A stretch of DNA of 46,783 nucleotides from Bacteroidota bacterium (GTDB lineage: Bacteria > Bacteroidota > Bacteroidia > B-17B0 > Aurantibacillaceae), in assembly GCA_021323535.1 (NCBI GenBank), contig JAJONO010000034.1:1-46783 (forward strand), read 5' to 3'. Position numbers and translations under genes: made by a program. The notes beneath the pieces are model-generated. The model was not told where the DNA came from. It saw nothing but the letters and a program-made list of their open reading frames with translations, and ran no database searches. This document shows positions 1 to 10,672 of the stretch, in pieces (within the stretch, counting starts at the first letter, position 1; each line of letters opens with the position of its first letter).

Positions 1-1076
1 ATAGACATCGAAAAATCATTGCAGTCTTTTGATCCCGGGAAATCTCCAGGTTTAATGTTGTACTTATCGGCATAATAGGCCAGCATATGAGGCGCATGTG
101 TACCGGGCCTTGTAGAAATTCCCATCTGCTGGAGTTTTTCCATCATGTCGTTACGCGACATAGGTGCAAGTGTTTCGTCAATATAGATCACATACGATTG
201 CCACCCGTGCTTATAATCTTTTCCAACTTCAGGAATGCGGAGCCATGGAATTGATTTTAATTCTTCATTATAATAGTGAGCCCATTTTTCGCGCTCATCA
301 ATAAACAGATCGAGTTTTTTTAACTGTACAATTCCAACTGCTGCCTGAAGATCCGTCATACGATAATTATATCCAAGCATATTAAAATCAGGAAGAATAT
401 ATGGTTTCGGACCATGATGACGTTGTTCTTCGGATATAGAGGCTCCATGATTTCTAAGGCTTGAAATGATCTCCGCGAGTTTATCATCGTTGGTGGTAAT
501 CATTCCTCCTTCGCCAGTAGTAACCGATTTACGTGGATGAAAGGAGAAGCATCCAAGTGTTCCCAGACTTCCTGCCGGTTTGCCTTTATAACCTGCGCCC
601 GCCGCGCAAGCGCCATCCTCAACTAAAGGAATGTTGCCCGCAACCGCTTTCACAGCGTCCATATCGGCACACAAGCCAAACAGGTGAACCGGAATAATGG
701 CTTTTGTTCTTGGCGTGATCTTCTTTTTAAGATCATTCACATCGATATTAAACGTTGTACGCTCCACATCCACAAAAACAACTTTAGCGCCACAATAAAT
801 AACCACATTGGCAGTTGATATCCATGTGAAGGCAGGTACAATTACCTCGTCGCCTTCTTTTATACCAAGAGCAACCAATGCAAGGTGCAAAGCGGTTGTA
901 GCGCTTGTAACAGCCATAGCATATTTTACGCCGTGGCGTTTTGCAAAAATCTCTTCGAACTCTCTTACTTTAGGGCCGGCAGTGAGCCATCCCGACATAA
1001 TTGGTTCTTTTGTAGCCATCCATTCTTCTTCACCTGTATGCGGTAAAGAGATCGGAATATTCCTTGTTTTTTCCAT
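1..1076 (-). CDS. DegT/DnrJ/EryC1-type PLP sugar aminotransferase (C-terminus cut by window edge)
   Basis: This is a PLP-dependent aminotransferase of the DegT/DnrJ/EryC1/StrS family, which typically transfers an amino group to a nucleotide-linked keto sugar. About 358 residues are visible. The N-terminus is complete from the ATG at 1074-1076 and the C-terminus runs off the left edge. The PLP site is clear: a segment reading CFSFHPRKSVTTGEGG places the Schiff-base lysine at about residue 183, and VEDGACAAG near 152-160 fits the cofactor-binding aspartate region. The start matches the family pattern (IPISLPHTGEEE). It overlaps the end of the upstream SGNH gene by 47 nt, which suggests coupled translation at the distal end of the polysaccharide operon. 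The exact sugar substrate cannot be read from sequence. Confidence 0.9.
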   Translation of the reverse strand, partial: MEKTRNIPISLPHTGEEEWMATKEPIMSGWLTAGPKVREFEEIFAKRHGVKYAMAVTSATTALHLALVALGIKEGDEVIVPAFTWISTANVVIYCGAKVVFVDVERTTFNIDVNDLKKKITPRTKAIIPVHLFGLCADMDAVKAVAGNIPLVEDGACAAGAGYKGKPAGSLGTLGCFSFHPRKSVTTGEGGMITTNDDKLAEIISSLRNHGASISEEQRHHGPKPYILPDFNMLGYNYRMTDLQAAVGIVQLKKLDLFIDEREKWAHYYNEELKSIPWLRIPEVGKDYKHGWQSYVIYIDETLAPMSRNDMMEKLQQMGISTRPGTHAPHMLAYYADKYNIKPGDFPGSKDCNDFSMS

Positions 1077-2034
1077 AGTTAATTAAATTTATTGAATCAC
1101 ATAATGCTTTTGTGAAACCGGTAGCGCCTTCTTTATTGAGATGGGTGTAATCTCTGAACATATTCGTGTCGAGTGAAATGTCACTCTTCTGAAAATCAAA
1201 ATAGGGAACACCGTATCGGTCGGCTATGTTCTGAATAGTGTCGCGTGCAGTAGCGTTAAGAGGCAGTTCTTTCATAAAGGGTTGGTACGCGGGCGCACAA
1301 AAAAGAACTACAGCGATGCCTCTGCTTTTAGCCAGTTCAATAATGTTGCATAGACTTAATACAGAATTCCTGCTTATTTCAGACTTCTGTAAACGGGTAG
1401 AGTCCCAACGCGCAAAAATAACTCCTTCTTTCCTGCCGCTAAGCAGTGCCGCTCCTTTCGAGCGATTAAAGTTATCCGGATTGTCATGATTGATTCCCAG
1501 AAGCATTTTGTCGGGAGAAAAAATATTATTGAATTCGGCATATTTAAAAAACGGAATATATTTCCTGAAGTAAAATTTTAAAGGATTGGAGTTGGCTTTG
1601 TAAATGGAATCCACTTTATTGTCTCCGATTAAATACAGATATTTTTCTTCACTGAACGGATGGCTGTACGCTTTATCACCTGGAATAACTCCCCATAAAT
1701 CGGCTTGTAAGCAGAGCGCGCGAATCTGATTCTTTTTCAAAAACTCATGTAACACCAGATAGTTTTCAGCGTAAGCAGCGCCGCCAATACCAAGGTTAAT
1801 TGTATTTGCGTGTAATAAACTATCGCATAAAACCGGATCAACAATATTGAAAACCCTGCTTGAACCTAAAAAAGCTACGTCATACTTCTGGCCGGAAACA
1901 TTCATTAGCCAGTTAGCTTTTTCTTTCGTAAATGTTCTGTTTGTTTTTTCGTAACGCCATTGTACGAGAGTCAGTATCAGAATCAGGGAGCCAACACCAA
2001 GAATAGTCGTTACTATTTTATTTTCCTTCCTCAA
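1030..2034 (-). CDS. SGNH/GDSL-like membrane-anchored protein, partner of the upstream MBOAT
   Basis: A 334-residue protein with one N-terminal membrane segment (about residues 8-25), then a globular domain placed outside the inner membrane. It has SGNH-fold marks: a GSSR block at 57-60 supplying the nucleophile serine, a glycine block NLGIGGA, and a D-x-x-H block near the end (Asp295, His298 in DYTHLNKEG). The 5' end overlaps the MBOAT stop by 4 nt (2031-2034). MBOAT/SGNH pairs move acyl groups across the membrane onto secreted glycans, as in alginate acetylation, so this is probably the periplasmic acyltransferase or esterase half of polysaccharide O-acylation. That role is inferred; the acyl group is unknown. 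Confidence 0.75.
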   Translation of the reverse strand: MRKENKIVTTILGVGSLILILTLVQWRYEKTNRTFTKEKANWLMNVSGQKYDVAFLGSSRVFNIVDPVLCDSLLHANTINLGIGGAAYAENYLVLHEFLKKNQIRALCLQADLWGVIPGDKAYSHPFSEEKYLYLIGDNKVDSIYKANSNPLKFYFRKYIPFFKYAEFNNIFSPDKMLLGINHDNPDNFNRSKGAALLSGRKEGVIFARWDSTRLQKSEISRNSVLSLCNIIELAKSRGIAVVLFCAPAYQPFMKELPLNATARDTIQNIADRYGVPYFDFQKSDISLDTNMFRDYTHLNKEGATGFTKALCDSINLINYGKNKEYSDLFTAYR

Positions 2035-3527
2035 AACTGAAAATAGATAAATTCATTGTCATTGTGATAAATACCCAGAAAAAGAATTAGTAAAACACCT
2101 GTCACGTAAATTGACCATCGGATAATTGGCGGCTTAGATCTTATAAAGAAAGAAAAACTCTCTGCTTCCTGTTTCCTGTGAATCATAAACATAATAAACA
2201 GTGAAAGAAGGATCACAAGTACTTCGAACCACATAACGGACAGGGTTCGTCCGAATAAAATGTCTTCCAGCCAAAGAAAATGTTCGTTGGAAATAAAATT
2301 ATAAATGAATAAAGGTACAGCCACGATAAATTTTTTCACGAGCAGAGAAGCATCAGAAAGAGTTTCAGAACGGAAAAAGATCCATGCAAATGCTGCCAGC
2401 AGAAACACGCAGGATGATTGAAGGATGTGATTTAGCTTTTTTCGCTTTTCAAGCCCGATAGCGTTCCGCATTTTGTACCTGATTTGTTCTGTAAACATTG
2501 CAAACACAAGATAAAAAGCATGAAGTGCGCCCCAGGCTATAAATGTCCAGTTTGCCCCGTGCCAGAGGCCACTTATAATAAAAGTAATTGCAAGGTTTCT
2601 TACGGTCTTCAGTTTGCCGTTACGGTTCCCTCCCAGGGGTATGTACAGATAATCTTTGAACCAGGTTGATAACGAGATGTGCCAGCGGCGCCAGAACTCA
2701 GAGATAGTAGTAGAGAAATAGGGCCGCCTGAAATTGGTCATAAGATCAATACCCATTACTCTTGAACAACCAATAGCTATATCTGAGTACCCTGAAAAGT
2801 CACAGAAGATCTGGATGCTGAAAAAAATGGTCGCAAGAAACACAGAGGTTGGCGCAGCGCCCGTAGGGTCGTCGAACACTGGGTTCACAAAAGTGGCCAG
2901 CCGGTCTGCGATAACGACTTTTTTAAAGAGGCCAAACAACATTTGTTTAAGTCCGTCGGCTACACGTTGAAAATCGAAGTCGTGTTTTTTATGAAACTGC
3001 CAGAGAAGATTCTGTGGTCTTTCGATTGGTCCGGCAACCAATTGAGGATAGTACATCACATAGAGTGAATAAATACCAAAATGCTTTTCCGCCTTTTGGT
3101 TACCCCTGTAAACTTCAATGGTGTAACTCATTGCCTGAAAAGTGTGAAACGATAGGCCAATAGGTAAAACCATCTCCAGTGCCGGTATACCATAGTTCCA
3201 ACCGATGGCTTCACTGATGGATTTAAAATTTGTATTGAAAAAATTGTAGTACTTGAAGATTGCAAGCACGCCAATATTTGCTACAAGGCTCAGAATAAGC
3301 CAACGCTTTTTCTTTTTTTTGTTATTCTCCTGTTCAATCAGGATCCCTGCAAAATAATCAACCAGGATAGTAAAGGCGAGTATAAGAATATACTCGGGAA
3401 TAAAAAACATGTAAAACACACAGCTCGCTGTAAGAAGCATGAACCAGCGTAAACGGTGCGGCAAAACGAAATAGAGAAGCGTTACAACAGGAAAAAAAAT
3501 AAGAAAGTTGAAGGAATTAAAAAGCAT
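2031..3527 (-). CDS. MBOAT family membrane-bound O-acyltransferase (AlgI-like), first copy
   Basis: A 498-residue polytopic membrane protein of the MBOAT family. Diagnostic stretches are SEFWRRWHISLSTWFKDYLY followed by IPLGGNR, and ISGLWHGANW, whose histidine (about residue 323) is the conserved catalytic residue. An open frame extends to 3551, but the family normally starts MLFNSFxFLIFF, so I place the start at 3527, which still overlaps the epimerase by 11 nt. It sits between a sugar epimerase and an SGNH protein, so it probably passes acyl groups through the membrane to decorate the glycan made by this locus. A second, clearly diverged MBOAT lies at 36792-38219. Confidence 0.92.
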   Translation of the reverse strand: MLFNSFNFLIFFPVVTLLYFVLPHRLRWFMLLTASCVFYMFFIPEYILILAFTILVDYFAGILIEQENNKKKKKRWLILSLVANIGVLAIFKYYNFFNTNFKSISEAIGWNYGIPALEMVLPIGLSFHTFQAMSYTIEVYRGNQKAEKHFGIYSLYVMYYPQLVAGPIERPQNLLWQFHKKHDFDFQRVADGLKQMLFGLFKKVVIADRLATFVNPVFDDPTGAAPTSVFLATIFFSIQIFCDFSGYSDIAIGCSRVMGIDLMTNFRRPYFSTTISEFWRRWHISLSTWFKDYLYIPLGGNRNGKLKTVRNLAITFIISGLWHGANWTFIAWGALHAFYLVFAMFTEQIRYKMRNAIGLEKRKKLNHILQSSCVFLLAAFAWIFFRSETLSDASLLVKKFIVAVPLFIYNFISNEHFLWLEDILFGRTLSVMWFEVLVILLSLFIMFMIHRKQEAESFSFFIRSKPPIIRWSIYVTGVLLILFLGIYHNDNEFIYFQF

Positions 3528-4494
3528 TTTTGTTTTTATTCCGCCAGTCAATGAGTTGGTTTAATCCCTCTTCGAGCGAATATTTGTATCGGAAACCAAG
3601 TTCTTTTTCCGCTTTTACTGCAGAGCCAATACGATTCTGCACAAGTGCTCTTGCGTCGTCTGCGCTGTAAGGTTTGTATGTTACTTTGAGATCTGATTTT
3701 TTCAGTTTCAGAATGAGGTCGCACAACGATTTAATAGAAGTCTGAACCTCGGTACCAACATTATAAAAACCGAAATCCGTATCGGATTTAAGGGCCTGTA
3801 CATTGCAACGCGCCACATCTTCCACGTAAATAAAATCGTAAGCCTGGCTACCGTCGCCATTGATTACAGGCGCTTCGTTGGCGTCTATTTTATTGAGCAT
3901 AATCGGAACCACCCCGGTATAGGCTGCCGTCTGGTCCTGATGAGGGCCATAAACGTTCATGTATCTCAAACCGATTACTTTTAGCCCATATCTGTCATTG
4001 AATGCCGTAGCCATTGCTTCCCCGGCAATCTTTGTTGCGCCATAGAAATTTTTGTTGTTAAAGGGATGTGACTCCGTCATTGGTAATTCAACCGCATCTC
4101 CGTAAACGGAAGCTGAAGAGGACCACACCAGTTTTTTAATCTTGTTGTTAACGCAGGCTTCGAGTACATTAAACGTGCCGGCAATATTTACATCGAAAGC
4201 TGTGCGTGGAAAATCCTTGCAATGGAGTAGCCACATAGCTGCAAGGCAGATCACATAATCCATTCCTTCCATAGCCTTGTTCAGAATATCTGTTTCGCGG
4301 ATGTCTCCTCCAATGGGGAATATACTGCATCGCTTATCGCGAAGCGACTCACTTAAATATTCTTTTTTACCACGCGCAAAATTGTCATAGACAACCACCT
4401 GCGCCACTTGTTCTTTCAACAGTTCCGCTACCACGAAGCTTCCAATGAAACCGGCTCCTCCGATAACGAGAATTTTAGAATTTTTGATCTCCAT
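3517..4494 (-). CDS. NAD-dependent sugar-nucleotide epimerase/dehydratase
   Basis: A 325-residue extended short-chain dehydrogenase of the UDP-glucose 4-epimerase type. The NAD-binding glycine motif GGAGFIG lies at about 12-18, SSSASVYGD at 125-133, and the catalytic YxxxK is Tyr151/Lys155 (YGATKIAGE). MNVYGP and DFIYVEDVA are also typical. It probably changes the stereochemistry of a UDP-sugar that feeds the polysaccharide exported by the neighbouring ABC transporter. Its ATG shares one base with the stop of the ABC ATPase gene (TAATG), which indicates translational coupling. The exact substrate (glucose, GlcNAc or uronate form) is not decidable here, so I give no symbol. Confidence 0.88.
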   Translation of the reverse strand: MEIKNSKILVIGGAGFIGSFVVAELLKEQVAQVVVYDNFARGKKEYLSESLRDKRCSIFPIGGDIRETDILNKAMEGMDYVICLAAMWLLHCKDFPRTAFDVNIAGTFNVLEACVNNKIKKLVWSSSASVYGDAVELPMTESHPFNNKNFYGATKIAGEAMATAFNDRYGLKVIGLRYMNVYGPHQDQTAAYTGVVPIMLNKIDANEAPVINGDGSQAYDFIYVEDVARCNVQALKSDTDFGFYNVGTEVQTSIKSLCDLILKLKKSDLKVTYKPYSADDARALVQNRIGSAVKAEKELGFRYKYSLEEGLNQLIDWRNKNKNAF

Positions 4495-5780
4495 TATATT
4501 TGTTCAAATTTTGTTTTTGTGTTCACCAGTCCCAGATTTTTTTCCCAGGGGTACATGTCTTTTTGTTCGCTGAATTTCTCAATCTTAATTCTTCCGAAAT
4601 GCTGCAGGTAATCGTAGGGATATCCACCCTTATCAAGTATGGCGATTCCGACCTGGTAATTACCGGGCAGTACATTTTGATCGATGCTGATCCGGAATTT
4701 GTTACTTCCTTTTCTGATATTTACTTTTAGTTTATTATACGGATCATTGCTGGCAGAGTAGGTCAGTTGTCCGATCTCCTCCTGCATTAAAGAGAACATA
4801 ATAATTACATCCTGCAACTCCGCCTGTGATTCTATCTCAATTTCAGCAATGGCCTTTTCCAGGTACATAAAAGATTCCCTGCGCTCACCGTTTGCGCCAA
4901 GCATTTCCAGGAAATTGATGCGAAGAACATCCTTATGATAACTGTGGCGCGGAGTATTTTCAGGAATTTTACCAAAACTCCGGTTTTCCGCCCCGCCCAT
5001 GAGGTAGTGACTGATTATTTCGCCGGGTAAGCCTGCGCGTTCAACCCTTCCTTTATCCAACAGAATGATGCGTGAACAAAGATTATTCATTACGCCCATA
5101 TTGTGGCTCACAAAAAGAACAGTTCTTCCTTCGCTGCTCACATCCTTCATTTTTCCGAGACACTTTTTCTGAAATTCCGCATCACCAACCGCAAGCACTT
5201 CATCTACAATTAATATTTCGGGCTCAAGATGTGCGGCTACAGCAAAGCCAAGCCGTACCATCATACCAGAAGAATACCGTTTTACAGGTGTGTCTATGTA
5301 CCTTGCAACACCACTGAAATCAACTATTTCGTCAAGCTTCCTTTTTATTTCAGTTTTGGTCATTCCAAGGATTGCACCGTTGAGGAATACATTCTCTCTT
5401 CCTGTGAGATCGGGATGAAAGCCTGTTCCAACTTCAAGCAAAGAAGCTATACGCCCCTTTATTTTAATGACCCCTGTAGTTGGAGCTGTTACCTGTGAAA
5501 GAATTTTGAGGAGGGTTGATTTTCCGGCACCGTTTTTCCCGATTATTCCAAGAACCTCTCCGCGTTGTACATTAAAACTGATGTCGCTTAGCGACCAGAC
5601 ATATTCTCCGCTTGCAGTTTTTGAGCGGTCATTCACATCACCTACTTTAAGATAAGGATCGGGTTTACCACGCATCCTGTGCCACCACCTGTTCAGGTCA
5701 TGAGAAACAGTTCCAGTACCTAACTGTCCAAGTCTGTACTGTTTTGAAATATTTTCGGCACTAAGAACTATGTCACTCAT
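4494..5780 (-). CDS. wzt: Polysaccharide ABC exporter ATPase, Wzt-like with C-terminal glycan-binding-type domain
   Basis: A 428-residue ATPase of the ABC-2 O-antigen/teichoic acid exporter class. Walker A GKNGAGKST is at 81-89, the signature YSSGM at 169-173, and Walker B ILIVDE at about 189-194, with the Wzt/TagH-type run VDEVLAVGDAEFQKK after it. An N-terminal extension of about 60 residues precedes the ATPase core. Residues 270-428 form an extra beta-rich C-terminal part, as in Wzt proteins that recognise the terminal modification of their glycan. It pairs with the permease encoded immediately before it, with a one-base start/stop overlap. It should power export of an undecaprenyl-linked polysaccharide. 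Confidence 0.93.
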   Translation of the reverse strand: MSDIVLSAENISKQYRLGQLGTGTVSHDLNRWWHRMRGKPDPYLKVGDVNDRSKTASGEYVWSLSDISFNVQRGEVLGIIGKNGAGKSTLLKILSQVTAPTTGVIKIKGRIASLLEVGTGFHPDLTGRENVFLNGAILGMTKTEIKRKLDEIVDFSGVARYIDTPVKRYSSGMMVRLGFAVAAHLEPEILIVDEVLAVGDAEFQKKCLGKMKDVSSEGRTVLFVSHNMGVMNNLCSRIILLDKGRVERAGLPGEIISHYLMGGAENRSFGKIPENTPRHSYHKDVLRINFLEMLGANGERRESFMYLEKAIAEIEIESQAELQDVIIMFSLMQEEIGQLTYSASNDPYNKLKVNIRKGSNKFRISIDQNVLPGNYQVGIAILDKGGYPYDYLQHFGRIKIEKFSEQKDMYPWEKNLGLVNTKTKFEQI

Positions 5781-6658
5781 TACACGGTATCGGTAAAAGA
5801 TTTTTCAACTCTGTTAAACAGGAACAATCCAATAAAAAGAAGAATAATTGTACAAAAAATGCTGTAACTCAGATTGACCCAGCTAAACACTCCGGATCCA
5901 AGAAAGGCGCACTTAAATGTCTCAATCACCCCGGTTAGTGGGTTTAAAAGCAGGATCATTTTGTATTTCTCGGGAACCACAGAAAGAGGGTAAACGATTG
6001 GTGAAGCATACATAAGAAGTTGCACGCCAAAAGAGACAAGAAACTTAAGGTCGCGGTATTTTGTGGTGAGGGAAGTTATAATAATACCAAAGGCAAGCCC
6101 CATAAATCCCATTATTAAAATAAGAAGAGGCAGCAATGGCATTAATTCAAAACGGGGATATATTTTATCTGAAGTCGTTAGAAAATAAATCCATACTACA
6201 AGGAATAACAGGAACTGAACTGATAATTTAATAAGGTTTGAGAAAATAACAGAAAGGGGAACGATGATACGGGGAAAATAAACCTTTCCGAAAACGCTTG
6301 CATTAGTGGTGAAGGTATCTGAAATTTTGGTAAGGGAATCGGAGAAATAGGTCCATAAAGTAATTCCTGAAAGATAGAACAGGATCCCGGGTATCCCGTC
6401 TGTTGAAATACCAGCAAGACCCCCAAAGATAACGGTGAAAGTAAGTGCAGTTATAACGGGTTGTACAAAGAACCATACCGGCCCTAGAATCGTTTGTTTA
6501 TAGACAGCCACGAAATCCCTTCTGACAAAAAGCCATAGAAGATCTTTGTACCTGAGAACATTCCTGAGCCGAAGGTCATACCATTTCCCTTTGGGCTGAA
6601 TGACAAGGTCCCATTTTTGCTGGGTTTGTTCGTTATGTGAGAGTTCTGCCTTATCCAT
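5780..6658 (-). CDS. wzm: Polysaccharide ABC exporter permease, Wzm-like
   Basis: A 292-residue ABC-2 type permease with an N-terminal soluble stretch (WDLVIQPKGKWYDLRLRN), then a linker (YKDLLWLFVRRDFVAVYKQT) and six predicted membrane spans. The motif TILGPVWFFVQP and the late SPIVYPLSVVPEKYK loop are typical of the O-antigen exporter family. Its first bases overlap the UpxY-like gene by 8 nt and its stop shares a base with the Wzt start, so the three are co-translated. Together with Wzt it forms the inner-membrane channel for the locus' polysaccharide. I see nothing odd in it. Confidence 0.92.
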   Translation of the reverse strand: MDKAELSHNEQTQQKWDLVIQPKGKWYDLRLRNVLRYKDLLWLFVRRDFVAVYKQTILGPVWFFVQPVITALTFTVIFGGLAGISTDGIPGILFYLSGITLWTYFSDSLTKISDTFTTNASVFGKVYFPRIIVPLSVIFSNLIKLSVQFLLFLVVWIYFLTTSDKIYPRFELMPLLPLLILIMGFMGLAFGIIITSLTTKYRDLKFLVSFGVQLLMYASPIVYPLSVVPEKYKMILLLNPLTGVIETFKCAFLGSGVFSWVNLSYSIFCTIILLFIGLFLFNRVEKSFTDTV

Positions 6659-7169
6659 TTACTAAAATTGCTACAGGCACGCGAACACGAATACACTGGC
6701 CAATACTTTCCAGTAAAACTTCAATCTGTTTGCCATCCTGGGCATCTATAACATAACCCTCAATGCCTTTCAAGGCACCGGAGTTGATTTTTACCTTGTC
6801 TCCCCCTTTATAATCACGGTTAATGGGACCAGCTTCCAGCTGATAGCCAAGCTCTACAAGTTGTTTTAAGCGGTCGATCTCCAATTGTTTAATAGTAGCA
6901 ATTCTGCCGTCGCTGCGAACATAAGAAACCACTCCTTTTGTTTGCAGAACATCTTCTTTTTCTTTTTCGTTTATATGAACAAACACGTAACCGTTAAGCA
7001 ATGGAAGTTCCACCATCTTTTTGCGGTCGCTCCATTGGCGCATACTCTTTGCAAGCGGAACATAAGAGTTAATATGCTTCAGCCGTAATGCCTCCGCAAC
7101 TTTTTTTTCTGCGCGTGAATTTACATAAACAGCCCGCCAGTATTTTTCAGATATGTTTGGTTCTTTCAA
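6651..7169 (-). CDS. UpxY/LoaP-like NusG-family transcription antiterminator
   Basis: A 172-residue NusG paralogue. Residues about 9-105 form an NGN domain (WRAVYVNSRAEKKVAEAL, then LPLLNGYVFVHI), and 120-150 a KOW domain (GDKVKINSGALKGIEGYV). In Bacteroides such UpxY proteins bind RNA polymerase at the leader of their own capsule operon and prevent early termination, and this gene heads the overlapping exporter/glycan cluster in the same way. The start is a TTG at 7167-7169. I accept it because a strong Shine-Dalgarno run, GAGGAGG (7177-7183), lies seven bases upstream and no ATG fits. The roughly 100 bp leader before it holds a weak hairpin (AGGGAT/ATCCCT). Confidence 0.88.
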   Translation of the reverse strand: MKEPNISEKYWRAVYVNSRAEKKVAEALRLKHINSYVPLAKSMRQWSDRKKMVELPLLNGYVFVHINEKEKEDVLQTKGVVSYVRSDGRIATIKQLEIDRLKQLVELGYQLEAGPINRDYKGGDKVKINSGALKGIEGYVIDAQDGKQIEVLLESIGQCIRVRVPVAILVNG

Positions 7170-7176
7170 AGCTTCG

Positions 7177-7183
7177 CCTCCTC
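7177..7183 (-). promoter_or_regulatory. Strong Shine-Dalgarno deciding a TTG start
   Basis: On the minus strand GAGGAGG lies seven bases before the TTG of the UpxY-like gene. Good Shine-Dalgarno sequences are uncommon in this window, so this one both fixes the non-ATG start and suggests that the antiterminator is translated efficiently. Confidence 0.6.
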
Positions 7184-7272
7184 AGTCCCATCCTGAGTTA
7201 TGATTATCAGAGTTTAAAACCAGTGTTCAGGGATGAATATTTATTTATCCCTTAAACTTCAATTCAAATAAA

Positions 7273-7803
7273 TTATTTACTCCAAATTAAAAGCGGGTGC
7301 AAACCCGGTTCTTTAATTTTATCAAGCTCAAATTCAGAAGGCAAATAGCAGATGAATTTAATTTTTTTATTTAATTTTTTTTCTGCCTTGCCGATCAATT
7401 CTATTAAATAAGCCTTGTTAATATCCCCCACCAGTACAAGGTCTATGACTTCACCCTCAATCCCTTTGGCAAGGCTGCCCACCAGGTATACTTTCTCAAG
7501 CTTGCCAATACGCTGTAAAATGTAATCTACAATGTGGTCAATGCCTGTAAGCTTTAATACAATGCGATTAATATCCTTGAATAAAGGATGAGAGGTGTTG
7601 GCTTTAAAAACCTTTTTATTTCCTTCGGTAGATGAAACTAAAAAGCCGGCCCGTTCAAATTTGTTAAGTTCCAGACGTACAGAATTTGTGGACTCATTAA
7701 ACTCCTCTTCCAGTCCGCGCAGATAAGAAGTTGTACTACTGTTTAAGAAGAACTTATAAAGCAGCTTGATTCTAGTTTTGGAGGATATGAGGGTTTCCAG
7801 CAT
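7273..7803 (-). CDS. Winged-helix regulator with degenerate nucleotidyltransferase-fold domain
   Basis: A 176-residue protein in two parts. Residues 1-75 form an ArsR/MarR-like winged helix (SSTTSYLRGLEEEFNESTNS, then KFERAGFLVSS). Residues about 85-176 look like a minimal nucleotidyltransferase fold: LVGSLAKG is the GS motif, but the usual DxD is reduced to a single aspartate (EVIDLVLVGD), so enzymatic activity is doubtful. It lies between the tyrosine kinase gene and the UpxY-like antiterminator, so it probably controls the polysaccharide locus. A perfect 8 bp inverted repeat overlapping a -10-like box sits just before its ATG, which suggests self-regulation. The signal it senses is unknown. 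Confidence 0.75.
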   Translation of the reverse strand: MLETLISSKTRIKLLYKFFLNSSTTSYLRGLEEEFNESTNSVRLELNKFERAGFLVSSTEGNKKVFKANTSHPLFKDINRIVLKLTGIDHIVDYILQRIGKLEKVYLVGSLAKGIEGEVIDLVLVGDINKAYLIELIGKAEKKLNKKIKFICYLPSEFELDKIKEPGLHPLLIWSK

Positions 7804-7807
7804 TATT

Positions 7808-7830
7808 ATTGAGTAGCAAAGTTACTCAAT
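7808..7830 (-). promoter_or_regulatory. Operator-like inverted repeat overlapping the promoter of the winged-helix gene
   Basis: ATTGAGTA (7808-7815) and TACTCAAT (7823-7830) are perfect inverted 8-mers separated by 7 bp. Inside, on the minus strand, TAACTTTG (7817-7824) is a perfect match to the Bacteroidota -7 box TAnnTTTG. I see no good -33 TTTG. Transcription would begin only a few bases before the ATG at 7803, so a protein bound to the repeat would block the polymerase directly. Confidence 0.6.
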
Positions 7831-7845
7831 TTTGTTTAAAGTTGG

Positions 7846-10215
7846 TTATTTTTTTCGTCCGTAACCTTTGCCATAGCCATATCCATAGCCATATCCGTAA
7901 CTATACCCATAGCCCTGATAATAATAACGTTTTCCGATGTGTTTTACCCCATTTAACAGTAAATGGATGTTTTGAAGGTTATTGTTTTCAATCAGTTCCT
8001 CAATAAAAGTAATTACTTTTTTAGAGCTTGATTTGGTATTCAGTACAAATATTGAGGCATCCACATGGTGGATCAGATATACGGAATCTGACAGCAGGCC
8101 TGCCGGTGGAGTATCAATAATAACGTAGTCAAAATTCTGTTTAGCGTAATTAATCAGGTCTTTCATCCGTTCAGATAATACAAATTCGGAAGGATTGGGA
8201 GGAATAGGTCCCGCAAACATTGCAAAAAGGTTAGGAACCGAAGTTTCACTTATTATTTCATTAATAGAATTCTGGCCGGTAATAAAAGTAGTGATTCCTT
8301 TTTCCTGTGCAGCCAGGCCAAAACGCCGGAATATTCTTGGTTTGTGAAGATCCAGTTCGAGTAAAACAGTTCGTTTGCCGCTTCTGGCCAGGATAGTAGC
8401 TAAATTCACGCTTGTAAAAGTTTTCCCCTCTCCCGGAAGAAAAGAGGTAACCAGGAAAGTTTTAGCGTCAATTCCGATATTGGCGTATTGCAGATTGGTT
8501 CTGAAGTTTCGGAATGATTCTGCTATGAGTGAGTTGGGTAATTGATCTACAACAATACCTTCACTCTCAGAATTTTTAAGAAGCGGTAATACTCCAATCA
8601 ACGGAAGGTTGGTTAATTCTTTCAGGTGTTCAACAGTTTTAATTTTTGAATAAAAAAGCGAACGGATCACGATGATGATGATGATGAGAAGTACAGCCGC
8701 GCTGATAAACTGTTTTAATATTTTGCCTTTGTCTGGCGAGTCAATTCCAATATAACGCGGTGGTTCAACCAGTTTAACATCCGGTACAATACTTGCACGG
8801 GCAATTTTAGTACTGGCCCTTTTTTCGAGCAAAAAGTTATATAATTGTTCGTTCACATTCGCTTTTCTTTGAATGGTGAGAATATCACGTTGCTTACCCG
8901 GAATAAGTTTTGCCGCATTTATATAGGTAAGAATTTCCTTGTTGAGATTTTCAATCTGTTGAGCGCTTGCTTTCCTGGTATTATTGATATATACTAAAAG
9001 ATCCTGTTTAGTCTTTTTTACACTTGCTTTTAAGTCATTAATCAAAGGATTATTCTCTTTAGCAACATTATAAAGCTGGTTTAACTCAATTTGTTTAGTA
9101 TACAGATCTGTTACAGCCTGCAACATAAAGCCCTGTTTTTCTGTTACGAATACATTTGGCGGAAGAAACTGAGGGTCTTTATCTTCGATGATATACTTTT
9201 CAAGGTCATTCAAAGCTTCTAGCTGAAGATTTATGTTTGACTTTTGATTATCATATGTTCCTATTTTGCTAAGGAAATCGGAACGTTCCCAATCCAGGTC
9301 GATGATTGAACGATTGGTTTTATAGTTTTGCATTGTGTCTTCAATGCTCTTTAGAGAGTAAGTGATCTGGTCAAGTTGAAGATCAATGTATGAGATAGTA
9401 CGTTCGTTAAGTTCAAACTTGGTTTTAAGTTTGCTCATAGCGTATACACTGTTAAGGGTATCCAGGATAAGAACCGCTCTTTCGGGTAGTATGTCTTTCA
9501 GGTCTATCTTTAAAATATTAGTGTACTCGGGGTTTTCAATCTCAAGGTTACCCCGGATATTATTGATTAAATAATCGTGAGTGTGAACACTAAACTGATA
9601 AAAAAGGGTTTTAAAATCTCTGACTTTTGCCTGGGTAAAAATATCTGTTCTGTTTATCGTAAGGAGTAAATCCGTATCAATAAGTTCTTTATTAAAATTG
9701 CCTTTTTTACTAATTTTATTGCCATTCTGTTCAAAAATTATTTCATATGAATCATAATCAATAATTCTGAAATCAAATATCTGTTCGTAATAGATCGGGT
9801 TAATTTTGTTAATGGTAATTTTGAAAGGCATCCCTGTAAATTGCTCAGTGGTTCTGACTTTACCTACAATGAAATAAGAGACCTGTAGTTTGTCAAGTAG
9901 TTTTTCTACGACCTTTCTGGATAAGTCATACGACTGTATGATCCGTTTTTCATTAAGGTTATCTACATAGGTGCCGTAATTGTAAAAATTAGCGTCGGTA
10001 ACTACATTTCCCTGGTAATAGATATCCTGACTTTTTAATAAGAATTCTGTAGAAGCTTTATATACGGTTATAAGCCTGTAAACATAAAATGAACCCATGG
10101 CGTAAAAAATAGGAATAACAACCAGGGGCACCCACCAATTAGATTTTAAGATCCTAAGGAATAAGTGGAGATCTTTTTGTGATAAGATGGATTGCTTTTT
10201 CTTGTTTTCAGCCAC
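7846..10215 (-). CDS. Wzc-like polysaccharide copolymerase / bacterial tyrosine autokinase
   Basis: A 789-residue inner-membrane protein. It has an N-terminal Wzz-type chain-length domain with a first membrane span (about 32-50), a long periplasmic coiled-coil region, a second span near 510-530 (ISAAVLLIIIIIVI), and a C-terminal BY-kinase. Kinase motifs are Walker A PGEGKT (594-599), Walker A' LLELDLHKPR (618-627) and Walker B YVIIDTPP (697-704). The tail from about 764 holds eleven tyrosines, mostly as GY repeats; such clusters are the autophosphorylation sites that tune polymer length. It is the first gene of the minus-strand locus. A Wzc-type kinase beside an ABC exporter is a mixed arrangement, since Wzc classically serves Wzx/Wzy systems. 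Confidence 0.93.
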   Translation of the reverse strand: MAENKKKQSILSQKDLHLFLRILKSNWWVPLVVIPIFYAMGSFYVYRLITVYKASTEFLLKSQDIYYQGNVVTDANFYNYGTYVDNLNEKRIIQSYDLSRKVVEKLLDKLQVSYFIVGKVRTTEQFTGMPFKITINKINPIYYEQIFDFRIIDYDSYEIIFEQNGNKISKKGNFNKELIDTDLLLTINRTDIFTQAKVRDFKTLFYQFSVHTHDYLINNIRGNLEIENPEYTNILKIDLKDILPERAVLILDTLNSVYAMSKLKTKFELNERTISYIDLQLDQITYSLKSIEDTMQNYKTNRSIIDLDWERSDFLSKIGTYDNQKSNINLQLEALNDLEKYIIEDKDPQFLPPNVFVTEKQGFMLQAVTDLYTKQIELNQLYNVAKENNPLINDLKASVKKTKQDLLVYINNTRKASAQQIENLNKEILTYINAAKLIPGKQRDILTIQRKANVNEQLYNFLLEKRASTKIARASIVPDVKLVEPPRYIGIDSPDKGKILKQFISAAVLLIIIIIVIRSLFYSKIKTVEHLKELTNLPLIGVLPLLKNSESEGIVVDQLPNSLIAESFRNFRTNLQYANIGIDAKTFLVTSFLPGEGKTFTSVNLATILARSGKRTVLLELDLHKPRIFRRFGLAAQEKGITTFITGQNSINEIISETSVPNLFAMFAGPIPPNPSEFVLSERMKDLINYAKQNFDYVIIDTPPAGLLSDSVYLIHHVDASIFVLNTKSSSKKVITFIEELIENNNLQNIHLLLNGVKHIGKRYYYQGYGYSYGYGYGYGYGKGYGRKK
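7855..7925 (-). repeat. Short tandem repeat encoding the Gly-Tyr tail of the autokinase
   Basis: A run of near-identical 6 bp units (on the plus strand mostly ccatat or ccatag) encodes alternating Tyr-Gly at the end of the tyrosine kinase. The units are in frame, so slippage by whole units would change the number of phosphorylatable tyrosines without breaking the gene. Confidence 0.7.
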
Positions 10216-10234
10216 AGGACTGGGTTTGAGTTAA

Positions 10235-10242
10235 CAAATATA
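10235..10242 (-). promoter_or_regulatory. Candidate -7 box of the polysaccharide locus promoter
   Basis: The minus strand reads TATATTTG, a full match to TAnnTTTG, about 20 bp before the autokinase ATG. A weaker TTTA lies 17 bp further upstream in place of the -33 TTTG. It lies in a 232 bp divergent region shared with the PID-CTERM/exosortase genes, which otherwise shows no clear feature. Confidence 0.5.
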
Positions 10243-10406
10243 GAAGTTTAAAGCGTATCTAAACCTATTTTTGAATTGAACCCGTAATATTTACGAGACT
10301 TGTTTTGTGAATATTTTATTTTTTTAAGGAAAACATCCCAGCAGCTTTTTATATCGTATATTATACAGGCAAATCTTCCCTTTTCAGGGTCAGGCAGCGT
10401 TTAAAT

Positions 10407-10437
10407 TTTGCTGATATCTTTTAAATTCATATATTTA
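10407..10437 (+). promoter_or_regulatory. Candidate promoter of the PID-CTERM/XrtF unit
   Basis: TTTG (10407-10410) is followed after exactly 19 bp by TATATTTA (10430-10437), one base from the Bacteroidota -33/-7 consensus. The ATG follows ten bases later, so the transcript would have almost no leader. The spacing is good but the -7 box is imperfect. Confidence 0.4.
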
Positions 10438-10447
10438 CCCTCTGTAA

Positions 10448-10672
10448 ATGAAAACATCTAAGGCCACATTATTATCGGTTCTGTTTATTTGTCTTAACCA
10501 GATACTATTAGCGGCACCCCCACCTCCACCAAGCGGAACATCAAGTCCCCCTTGCTGGCCACCTCCATGTATTCCAATAGATGGCGGAGTTACCTTTTTA
10601 ATAGCCGCGGGCGCTGCTTACGGAGTTAAAAAGATCTACGATTCCCGTAAAAAAACGTCAAAAATTTCTTAA
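10448..10672 (+). CDS. Small PID-CTERM protein, likely exosortase XrtF substrate
   Basis: A 74-residue exported protein. Residues 1-23 look like a signal peptide. Residues 24-42 are proline-rich with two cysteines (CWPPPC). From residue 43 comes the sorting tail: PIDGG, a hydrophobic span (VTFLIAAGAAYGV) and a basic end (KKIYDSRKK). The tripartite tail of motif, membrane span and positive charges is the standard exosortase sorting architecture, and the PID form is known from Bacteroidota. The mature part is only about 20 residues. The gene lies 13 bp before XrtF on the same strand, so enzyme and substrate are probably made together. The role of the processed peptide is unknown; attachment to a surface glycan or lipid is possible. 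Confidence 0.8.
   Translation: MKTSKATLLSVLFICLNQILLAAPPPPPSGTSSPPCWPPPCIPIDGGVTFLIAAGAAYGVKKIYDSRKKTSKIS

Follow-up and report, generated by a model that had tools for sequence, protein, structure and literature searches.

We propose that a perfect inverted repeat situated just ahead of a regulator gene is an autoregulatory operator, which would shut both that gene and the glycan operon behind it, and that the antiterminator UpxY would be loaded at a conserved element further downstream. A probability of about 70% was assigned to this reading, which is based on the comparison of sequences described below. The DNA analyzed here, called the window, is the whole stretch of 46,783 nucleotides of contig JAJONO010000034.1 from a Bacteroidota bacterium (assembly GCA_021323535.1). 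The features of the locus are listed in Table 1.

Table 1. Features of the regulator locus and their positions in the window.
Feature	Positions	Strand	Remarks
Upstream gene: Wzz/Wzc-type polysaccharide co-polymerase with C-terminal tyrosine-kinase-like ATPase	7846-10215	-	
Gap of 42 bp, from the stop codon of the upstream gene to the regulator ATG	7804-7845	-	Contains the operator; -33 box weak
Operator-like perfect inverted repeat, ATTGAGTA-N7-TACTCAAT	7808-7830		Conserved core GAGTA-N7-TACTC at 7811-7827
Predicted -7 promoter box, TAACTTTG (TAnnTTTG), within the operator	7817-7824	-	Consensus from general background
Regulator, 176 aa	7273-7803	-	Winged helix (residues 1-87) and degenerate minimal-nucleotidyltransferase fold (about 79-176)
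ops-like element, 24 nt, TGGGACTGAGGAGGCGAAGCTTTG	7167-7190	-	Candidate UpxY loading site
Hairpin CTCAG-N7-CTGAG	7181-7197	-	3' arm within the ops-like element; candidate RNA pause hairpin
UpxY-family antiterminator (NusG paralogue)	6651-7169	-	NF033644, 138.7 bits vs cut-off 100
Downstream glycan genes	1030-6658	-	ABC-2 permease; ABC ATPase with Wzt C-terminal domain; NAD-dependent epimerase; MBOAT acyltransferase; GDSL-like protein

The gap between the regulator and UpxY genes of the window is about 100 bp. The kinase-like protein encoded upstream has a Gly/Tyr-rich C-terminal tail, coded by repeats like GGCTATGGCAAAGG (window 7850-7900, minus strand), and comparable Gly/Tyr-rich tails stop just ahead of the operator in several relatives. 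An Rfam match to STnc50 at window positions 7240-7321 on the plus strand, antisense to the end of the regulator gene, stayed below threshold (29.2 bits versus 55) and is probably due to chance.

On the plus strand, positions 7808-7830 read ATTGAGTAGCAAAGTTACTCAAT, which is a perfect 8-7-8 inverted repeat. The same repeat reads ATTGAGTAACTTTGCTACTCAAT on the gene strand (minus) and contains TAACTTTG at 7824-7817. Its 8-bp arm ends 4 nt ahead of the regulator ATG, and the inner TACTC ends 7 nt ahead. The earlier note had described here a perfect 8-bp inverted repeat with a TAnnTTTG match a few bases before the start codon, and this description was confirmed. With up to 3 mismatches allowed, the repeat pattern occurs once in the window (0.45 expected). 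The source genome holds one copy with zero mismatches, the only site with fewer than 2, and the next-best site has 2 mismatches and is placed inside a long open frame. The genome showed no excess of sites with up to 3 mismatches (20 versus 39 for the pattern read backwards). Based on this count and on the position of the best non-self site, further regulon sites with up to 3 mismatches were rejected for this genome.

Homologues of the regulator were present in 66 of the 87 genomes of its family and in 77 of 395 genomes drawn from the class, and named assemblies contributed 13 loci. An order-wide search yielded no genomes beyond the 87 of the family. The near set consisted of 80 loci, of which 73 were left after those with identical upstream DNA and protein were dropped, and the 75 matches of the class-wide set collapsed to 63 loci. 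Merging of the loci with identical first 100 residues resulted in 133 loci; the upstream DNA was long enough in 132 of them and the flank in 131. L084 and L189, which have just a piece of the regulator gene, were retained in the counts. At L189 (G299:C39:1980-2520), the match to the regulator runs over two frames; the gene is apparently broken there, with an intact operator.

A lone perfect 8-bp repeat is modest evidence, and the operator is raised above chance by its conservation, on which the earlier note had let its proposal stand or fall. The strict core GAGTA-N7-TACTC was found at 111 of 132 loci in the 300 nt that precede the regulator gene, while 0.005 were expected from first-order Markov shuffles. 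TGCTC replaces TACTC at 9 of the 21 loci without the strict site, and neither form was detected in the 300 nt searched upstream at 12 of the 132 loci. In the near set, the operator with T[AG]CTC is present at 68 of 73 loci, and at 59 of these 68 the distance from the end of its inner arm (TACTC) to the start codon is 3-6 nt. In the case of the distant loci, the operator is present at 45 of 62; it lies up to 12 nt from the start in 19 of the 45 and more than 12 nt away in 26. It is kept ahead of homologues that are about 50-60% identical or less, and the rest of the upstream stretches is dissimilar between loci. These comparisons support the view that the repeat is an operator-like site.

The exact promoter-bearing site GAGTANNTTTNNTACTC occurs 64 times in the 87 family genomes, and 58 of these sites are located at the regulator gene. 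It is present in 57 of the 66 genomes with the regulator gene versus 2 of the 21 without it (p = 1.6e-10; this p-value, like the one given below, overstates independence because the genomes are related). The 6 exact sites elsewhere in the family genomes are no excess over the reversed-pattern control (18), and second regulon sites with an exact match were therefore rejected for the family. Five loci (L052, L055, L061, L073, and L074) have upxY and an epimerase gene upstream of the regulator, and even there the operator directly precedes the regulator. Such a pattern is as for a dedicated autoregulatory operator. Since the site is nearly exclusive to the regulator gene, self-control, in which the regulator would bind its own promoter, is the simplest reading. 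It could be argued that the site is instead the operator of another widely shared regulator and that the adjacent gene is a passenger; the regulator-site contact is deduced from sequence, 6 exact sites are away from the gene, and 2 genomes without the gene carry the site. However, the site tracks the gene through the rearrangements at the five loci, it is distributed among genomes together with the gene, and its copies elsewhere do not rise above the control. We consider a foreign regulator improbable.

The spacer of the operator is constrained as well. When the 17-nt core is read in gene orientation and its columns are numbered from 0, all 68 near loci have T at columns 8 and 9, and 63 have T at column 7. 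The central triplet is TTT in 61 of 66 near loci and AAA in 0, and it is TTT in 32 and AAA in 3 of the 45 distant loci. A protein site that is symmetric does not require its spacer to prefer one strand, and the kept TT is as expected with a -7 box inside. In Bacteroidota, the -7 box is TAnnTTT(G), and the promoter consensus is TTTG / TAnnTTTG, with the -33 box at a spacing of about 19-21 nt; in the window, TAACTTTG agrees with the -7 part. At 44 of 68 near loci, a TTG is found 17-22 nt upstream of the -7 box, whereas three equally wide control windows gave 2, 3, and 8. The window itself has no TTG at this distance from the -7 box. The transcript start is predicted to lie a few nucleotides before the regulator ATG. 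The claim that the operator overlaps the -7 box holds for the window and the near relatives, where TAnnTTT is kept in gene orientation, and becomes looser in distant lineages. The distant-locus counts for the operator (45/62), for the central TTT (32/45), and for a position close to the start (19/45) indicate that the promoter overlap is not universal.

These distant loci bear on the possibility that the regulator binds but activates, or reads the transcript, instead of blocking its own promoter, since a site farther than 12 nt from the start (26/45) would suit it. In the near relatives, however, the palindrome includes the -7 box itself, and an operator positioned over the -7 box normally excludes the sigma factor. 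We give activation or transcript reading a low probability.

The repeat might also work as RNA, in the form of a terminator or leader hairpin, and not as protein-binding DNA. The scan calls it terminator-like on the plus strand (10 pairs, 3 of them G-C), but the neighbouring operon genes are all encoded on the other strand, and on the gene strand no T-run follows the repeat. The ten core bases are nearly invariant and show no covariation, and the outer position beside the core changes alone (T to C in 15 of 68 loci, its partner A to G in 6 of 68). In addition, no Rfam family was found above threshold in the region 6500-10500. On these grounds, the terminator or RNA reading was rejected as highly improbable.

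The regulator (ORF 7803-7273) was modelled with the use of 37 sequences, and the predicted model had a mean pLDDT of 85.2 and a pTM of 0.75. In the model comparison, residues 1-87 matched the winged helix of ArsR-type repressors (best Z of 11.2, 6o8k), and residues 79-176 matched the MNT antitoxin 8xeo_B (Z of 9.6, 93 residues aligned, rmsd 3.6). The best Foldseek match for the nucleotidyltransferase-like domain had an E-value of 5e-4. With the regulator as a query, Pfam gave only matches below the cut-off, NCBIfam gave no family, and a sequence search of solved structures gave nothing useful (6 matches, E 0.16-0.31). Both folds that had been named for the regulator were recovered in the model, and the transferase part of this description needs a qualification. 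The motif GS...DhD, which we take to be the signature of an active nucleotidyltransferase, is not kept in the 37-row alignment: of its positions, only G109 is invariant, the following residue varies, and several members have S, A, E, or Q in place of the lone Asp of IDL. The domain looks inactive, and we regard it as probably a sensor or dimer module. As for conserved metal or thiol sensor residues, no cysteine was found in the invariant or nearly invariant columns of the 37 sequences. The residues S38, N40, R43, E45, L46, and N47 are invariant in the alignment and are located at or adjoining helix 39-51 of the model, which is likely the recognition helix; its invariant residues would fit the invariant half-site.

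A upxY match is located downstream of the regulator at 57 of 73 near loci and upstream of the operator at 7, and no match was found within the analyzed flank at 9. The operator was earlier supposed to act through the UpxY gene that follows it. This is consistent with the window and with the 57 loci, but it finds no support as a general rule, since at the 7 loci with upxY upstream the operator would not control it. The same 7 loci speak against a strict form of the two-step switch proposed for the glycan genes, while the two-gate anatomy is supported by the sequence of the window. In the lineages with upxY upstream, the 24-nt ops-like element stays downstream of the operator, so the second step, if any, would be better placed at the element than at the upxY gene. 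At the five rearranged loci named above, the regulator is followed by the element and, in many cases, by ABC transporter genes.

The element was first seen as a recurrent stretch between the operator and the gene in distant loci; in the window, it is placed between the regulator and UpxY. Its motif is TGKGACTGAGGWGGCGAAGCYNTR (24 nt), and its core was anchored on GGCGAAGC. The core is present in sense orientation at 99 of 131 loci, in 82 cases after the regulator gene and in 17 between the operator region and the gene, and it is absent from 32. The information is low outside positions -12 to +11, save for a mild A preference after the element. The exact pattern RACTNANNNGGCGAAGCNNTR gave 78 sites in 56 of the 87 family genomes, and the reversed pattern gave 0. 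Within 1 kb of the regulator lie 54 of the 78 sites, and 24 lie outside regulator loci. Inspection of 18 of these outside places placed 14 outside listed open frames, 3 of which directly precede a upxY match, and 4 inside an open frame. The latter were set aside as coincidences, and 3 of them look chaperonin-coding by sequence reading. Six further outside places with the same kind of 21-mer were assumed to be coding.

In the class sample (395 genomes), a slightly looser pattern, ACTNANNNGGCGAAGCNNTR, was used. It was found in 65 genomes, and the reversed pattern was found in 11. UpxY scored over the cut-off in 60 of the 65 genomes with the element versus 71 of the 330 others (p = 4.6e-28, overstated since the genomes are related). 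There are 19 genomes with the element and UpxY and with no regulator match; in 12 of them the two are on the same strand with 58-168 nt between, and in 7 they are on different contigs. The presence of the element and UpxY in regulator-less genomes indicates that the element goes with UpxY and not with the regulator. The element resembles an ops-type loading site, and we regard it as a candidate loading site of UpxY. It might alternatively be a translation or pause signal unrelated to UpxY, since in the window it shares bases with the listed UpxY start, some copies are ahead of genes other than upxY, and 71 of the 131 genomes with UpxY over the cut-off are without the exact pattern. Such a signal would leave unexplained the UpxY found in 60 of 65 element genomes and the 12 of 19 regulator-less genomes with the element near a same-strand upxY match; it is possible but unlikely.

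Several single loci were recorded along with the element. In the window, the element's last bases make up the listed TTG start of UpxY (7167-7169, minus strand), and at L016 and L027 the element ends in CCATG and may double as the start region. At L241 and L243 (genomes G073 and G086), a second UpxY-like gene, 39% identical, has its own copy of the element directly before it, and no regulator match or operator was found in the stretch searched. At L233, L234, and L235, the element is found before an apparent tyrosine recombinase (two loci) and a nucleotidyltransferase/HEPN-like pair (one locus), according to sequence reading.

A six-base arm that precedes the element and pairs with ACTGAG or its variants was found at 38 of 99 loci, versus 1.9 expected and a maximum of 6 in 200 shuffles. 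Both sides of the arm are changed in a few loci (CTTAGT/ACTGAG, GTCAGT/ACTGAC, and TTCAGT/ACTGAA). The hairpin in the window consists of five Watson-Crick pairs (CTCAG/CTGAG), and the window is not among the 38. A DNA folding tool used at 37 °C predicted no hairpin in two 12-mer element cores, unlike in the E. coli ops 12-mer, and this result lends nothing to the comparison with ops, although its energy rules may miss mini-hairpins. GCGAAGC is an unusually stable DNA mini-hairpin of the kind that simple energy rules may miss.

The steps that we infer, namely binding, dimer formation, repression rather than activation, the signal, and UpxY loading at the element, would be connected as follows. 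The regulator, probably as a dimer, would occupy the two GAGTA half-sites and mask the -7 box. With the box covered, RNA polymerase would be kept off the regulator promoter, which constitutes gate one. A signal, perhaps sensed by the degenerate nucleotidyltransferase domain, would release the regulator. Transcription would then cross the regulator gene, and the polymerase would pause at the 24-nt element, which constitutes gate two. UpxY would load there on the paused polymerase, and the long glycan operon would be read to its end.

According to the available parts of the sources, UpxY antitermination in Bacteroides leaders is established (PMC7819879, PMC12632263, PMC13114119), and in the 5' leaders that precede upxY, UpxY stops premature termination (PMC7819879). 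As of 2020, RfaH of E. coli was described as the sole paralogue with a detailed known recruitment mode (available part of PMC7593976), and in 2025 the mechanism of other NusG paralogues was still called unclear (available part of PMC12691694). Our literature search, judged by titles and the beginnings of abstracts and with most subscription papers outside its coverage, found no recognisable description of the regulator, the operator, or the element. The analysis provides testable sequences for the questions of how non-gut Bacteroidota switch on long surface-glycan operons and where UpxY loads. The 2024 work by Saba on UpxY recognition in Bacteroides may answer the loading question in part. In that work, UpxY is said to read, at a pause, both the non-template DNA and the upstream duplex, with the assistance of RNA hairpins; if so, the element would be that kind of site in other lineages. 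The principle of loading is probably known already from it, which would leave as the new part the sequence of the element in these lineages, together with the regulator and the operator. If the operator and the loading element are truly constant, such operons could be found and tuned from sequence. We give even odds to a broader proposal, in which non-gut glycan operons across the class would share a two-gate module. It would consist of a dedicated winged-helix/pseudo-nucleotidyltransferase autorepressor, whose operator is almost invariant and covers the -7 box, and of a near-universal UpxY loading element of 24 nt with its own pause hairpin, readable in trans wherever upxY sits. Such a module would replace the locus-specific UpxY signals and invertible promoters of gut Bacteroides.

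The locus is similar to the UpxY/UpxZ capsule loci of Bacteroides (Chatzidaki-Livanis 2009, 2010; Saba 2024) in that a UpxY-family NusG paralogue heads a long glycan operon and leader signals are found before or at upxY. It differs from the gut loci, which use invertible promoters and UpxZ (available part of PMC12632263), whereas the operon described here is headed by a winged-helix regulator that has an operator of its own, and many genera share one near-constant element. In E. coli, ops is a pause element of 12 nt with TG at positions 11-12, and its non-template strand forms a small hairpin (available part of PMC5995543). RfaH, like UpxY, is a NusG paralogue, and both sites may share a 12-nt register which starts with GG and is consensus-pause-like (same source). 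In the element, position 11 is T in 97 of 99 loci, position 12 is G in 58 and A in 41 of the 99, and GG is fixed by the anchoring on GGCGAAGC. Contacts in ops involve G5 and T6 (same source), whereas the core GGCGAAGC has A and A at these places (loop GAA), and here a conserved TGKGACTGA block is found upstream of the 12-mer.

With ArsR/HlyU/SqrR-type repressors, the regulator shares the winged-helix fold (Z of about 11) and a palindromic operator over the promoter, but it is without an invariant cysteine or metal site and has a C-terminal nucleotidyltransferase-like domain. The fold of this domain is that of the MNT antitoxins of HEPN-MNT systems (Z 9.6; Foldseek E 5e-4), unlike which the regulator has lost the signature, is fused to a winged helix, and is encoded within a glycan operon. 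The joining of an enzyme-like domain to a winged helix is also known from RbkR of Thermoplasma, which combines a winged helix with riboflavin kinase (Foldseek match to the DNA-bound structure 5trd, E 1e-3). In the case of RbkR, the enzyme fold is a different one and the protein is an enzyme, while the regulator described here appears inactive.
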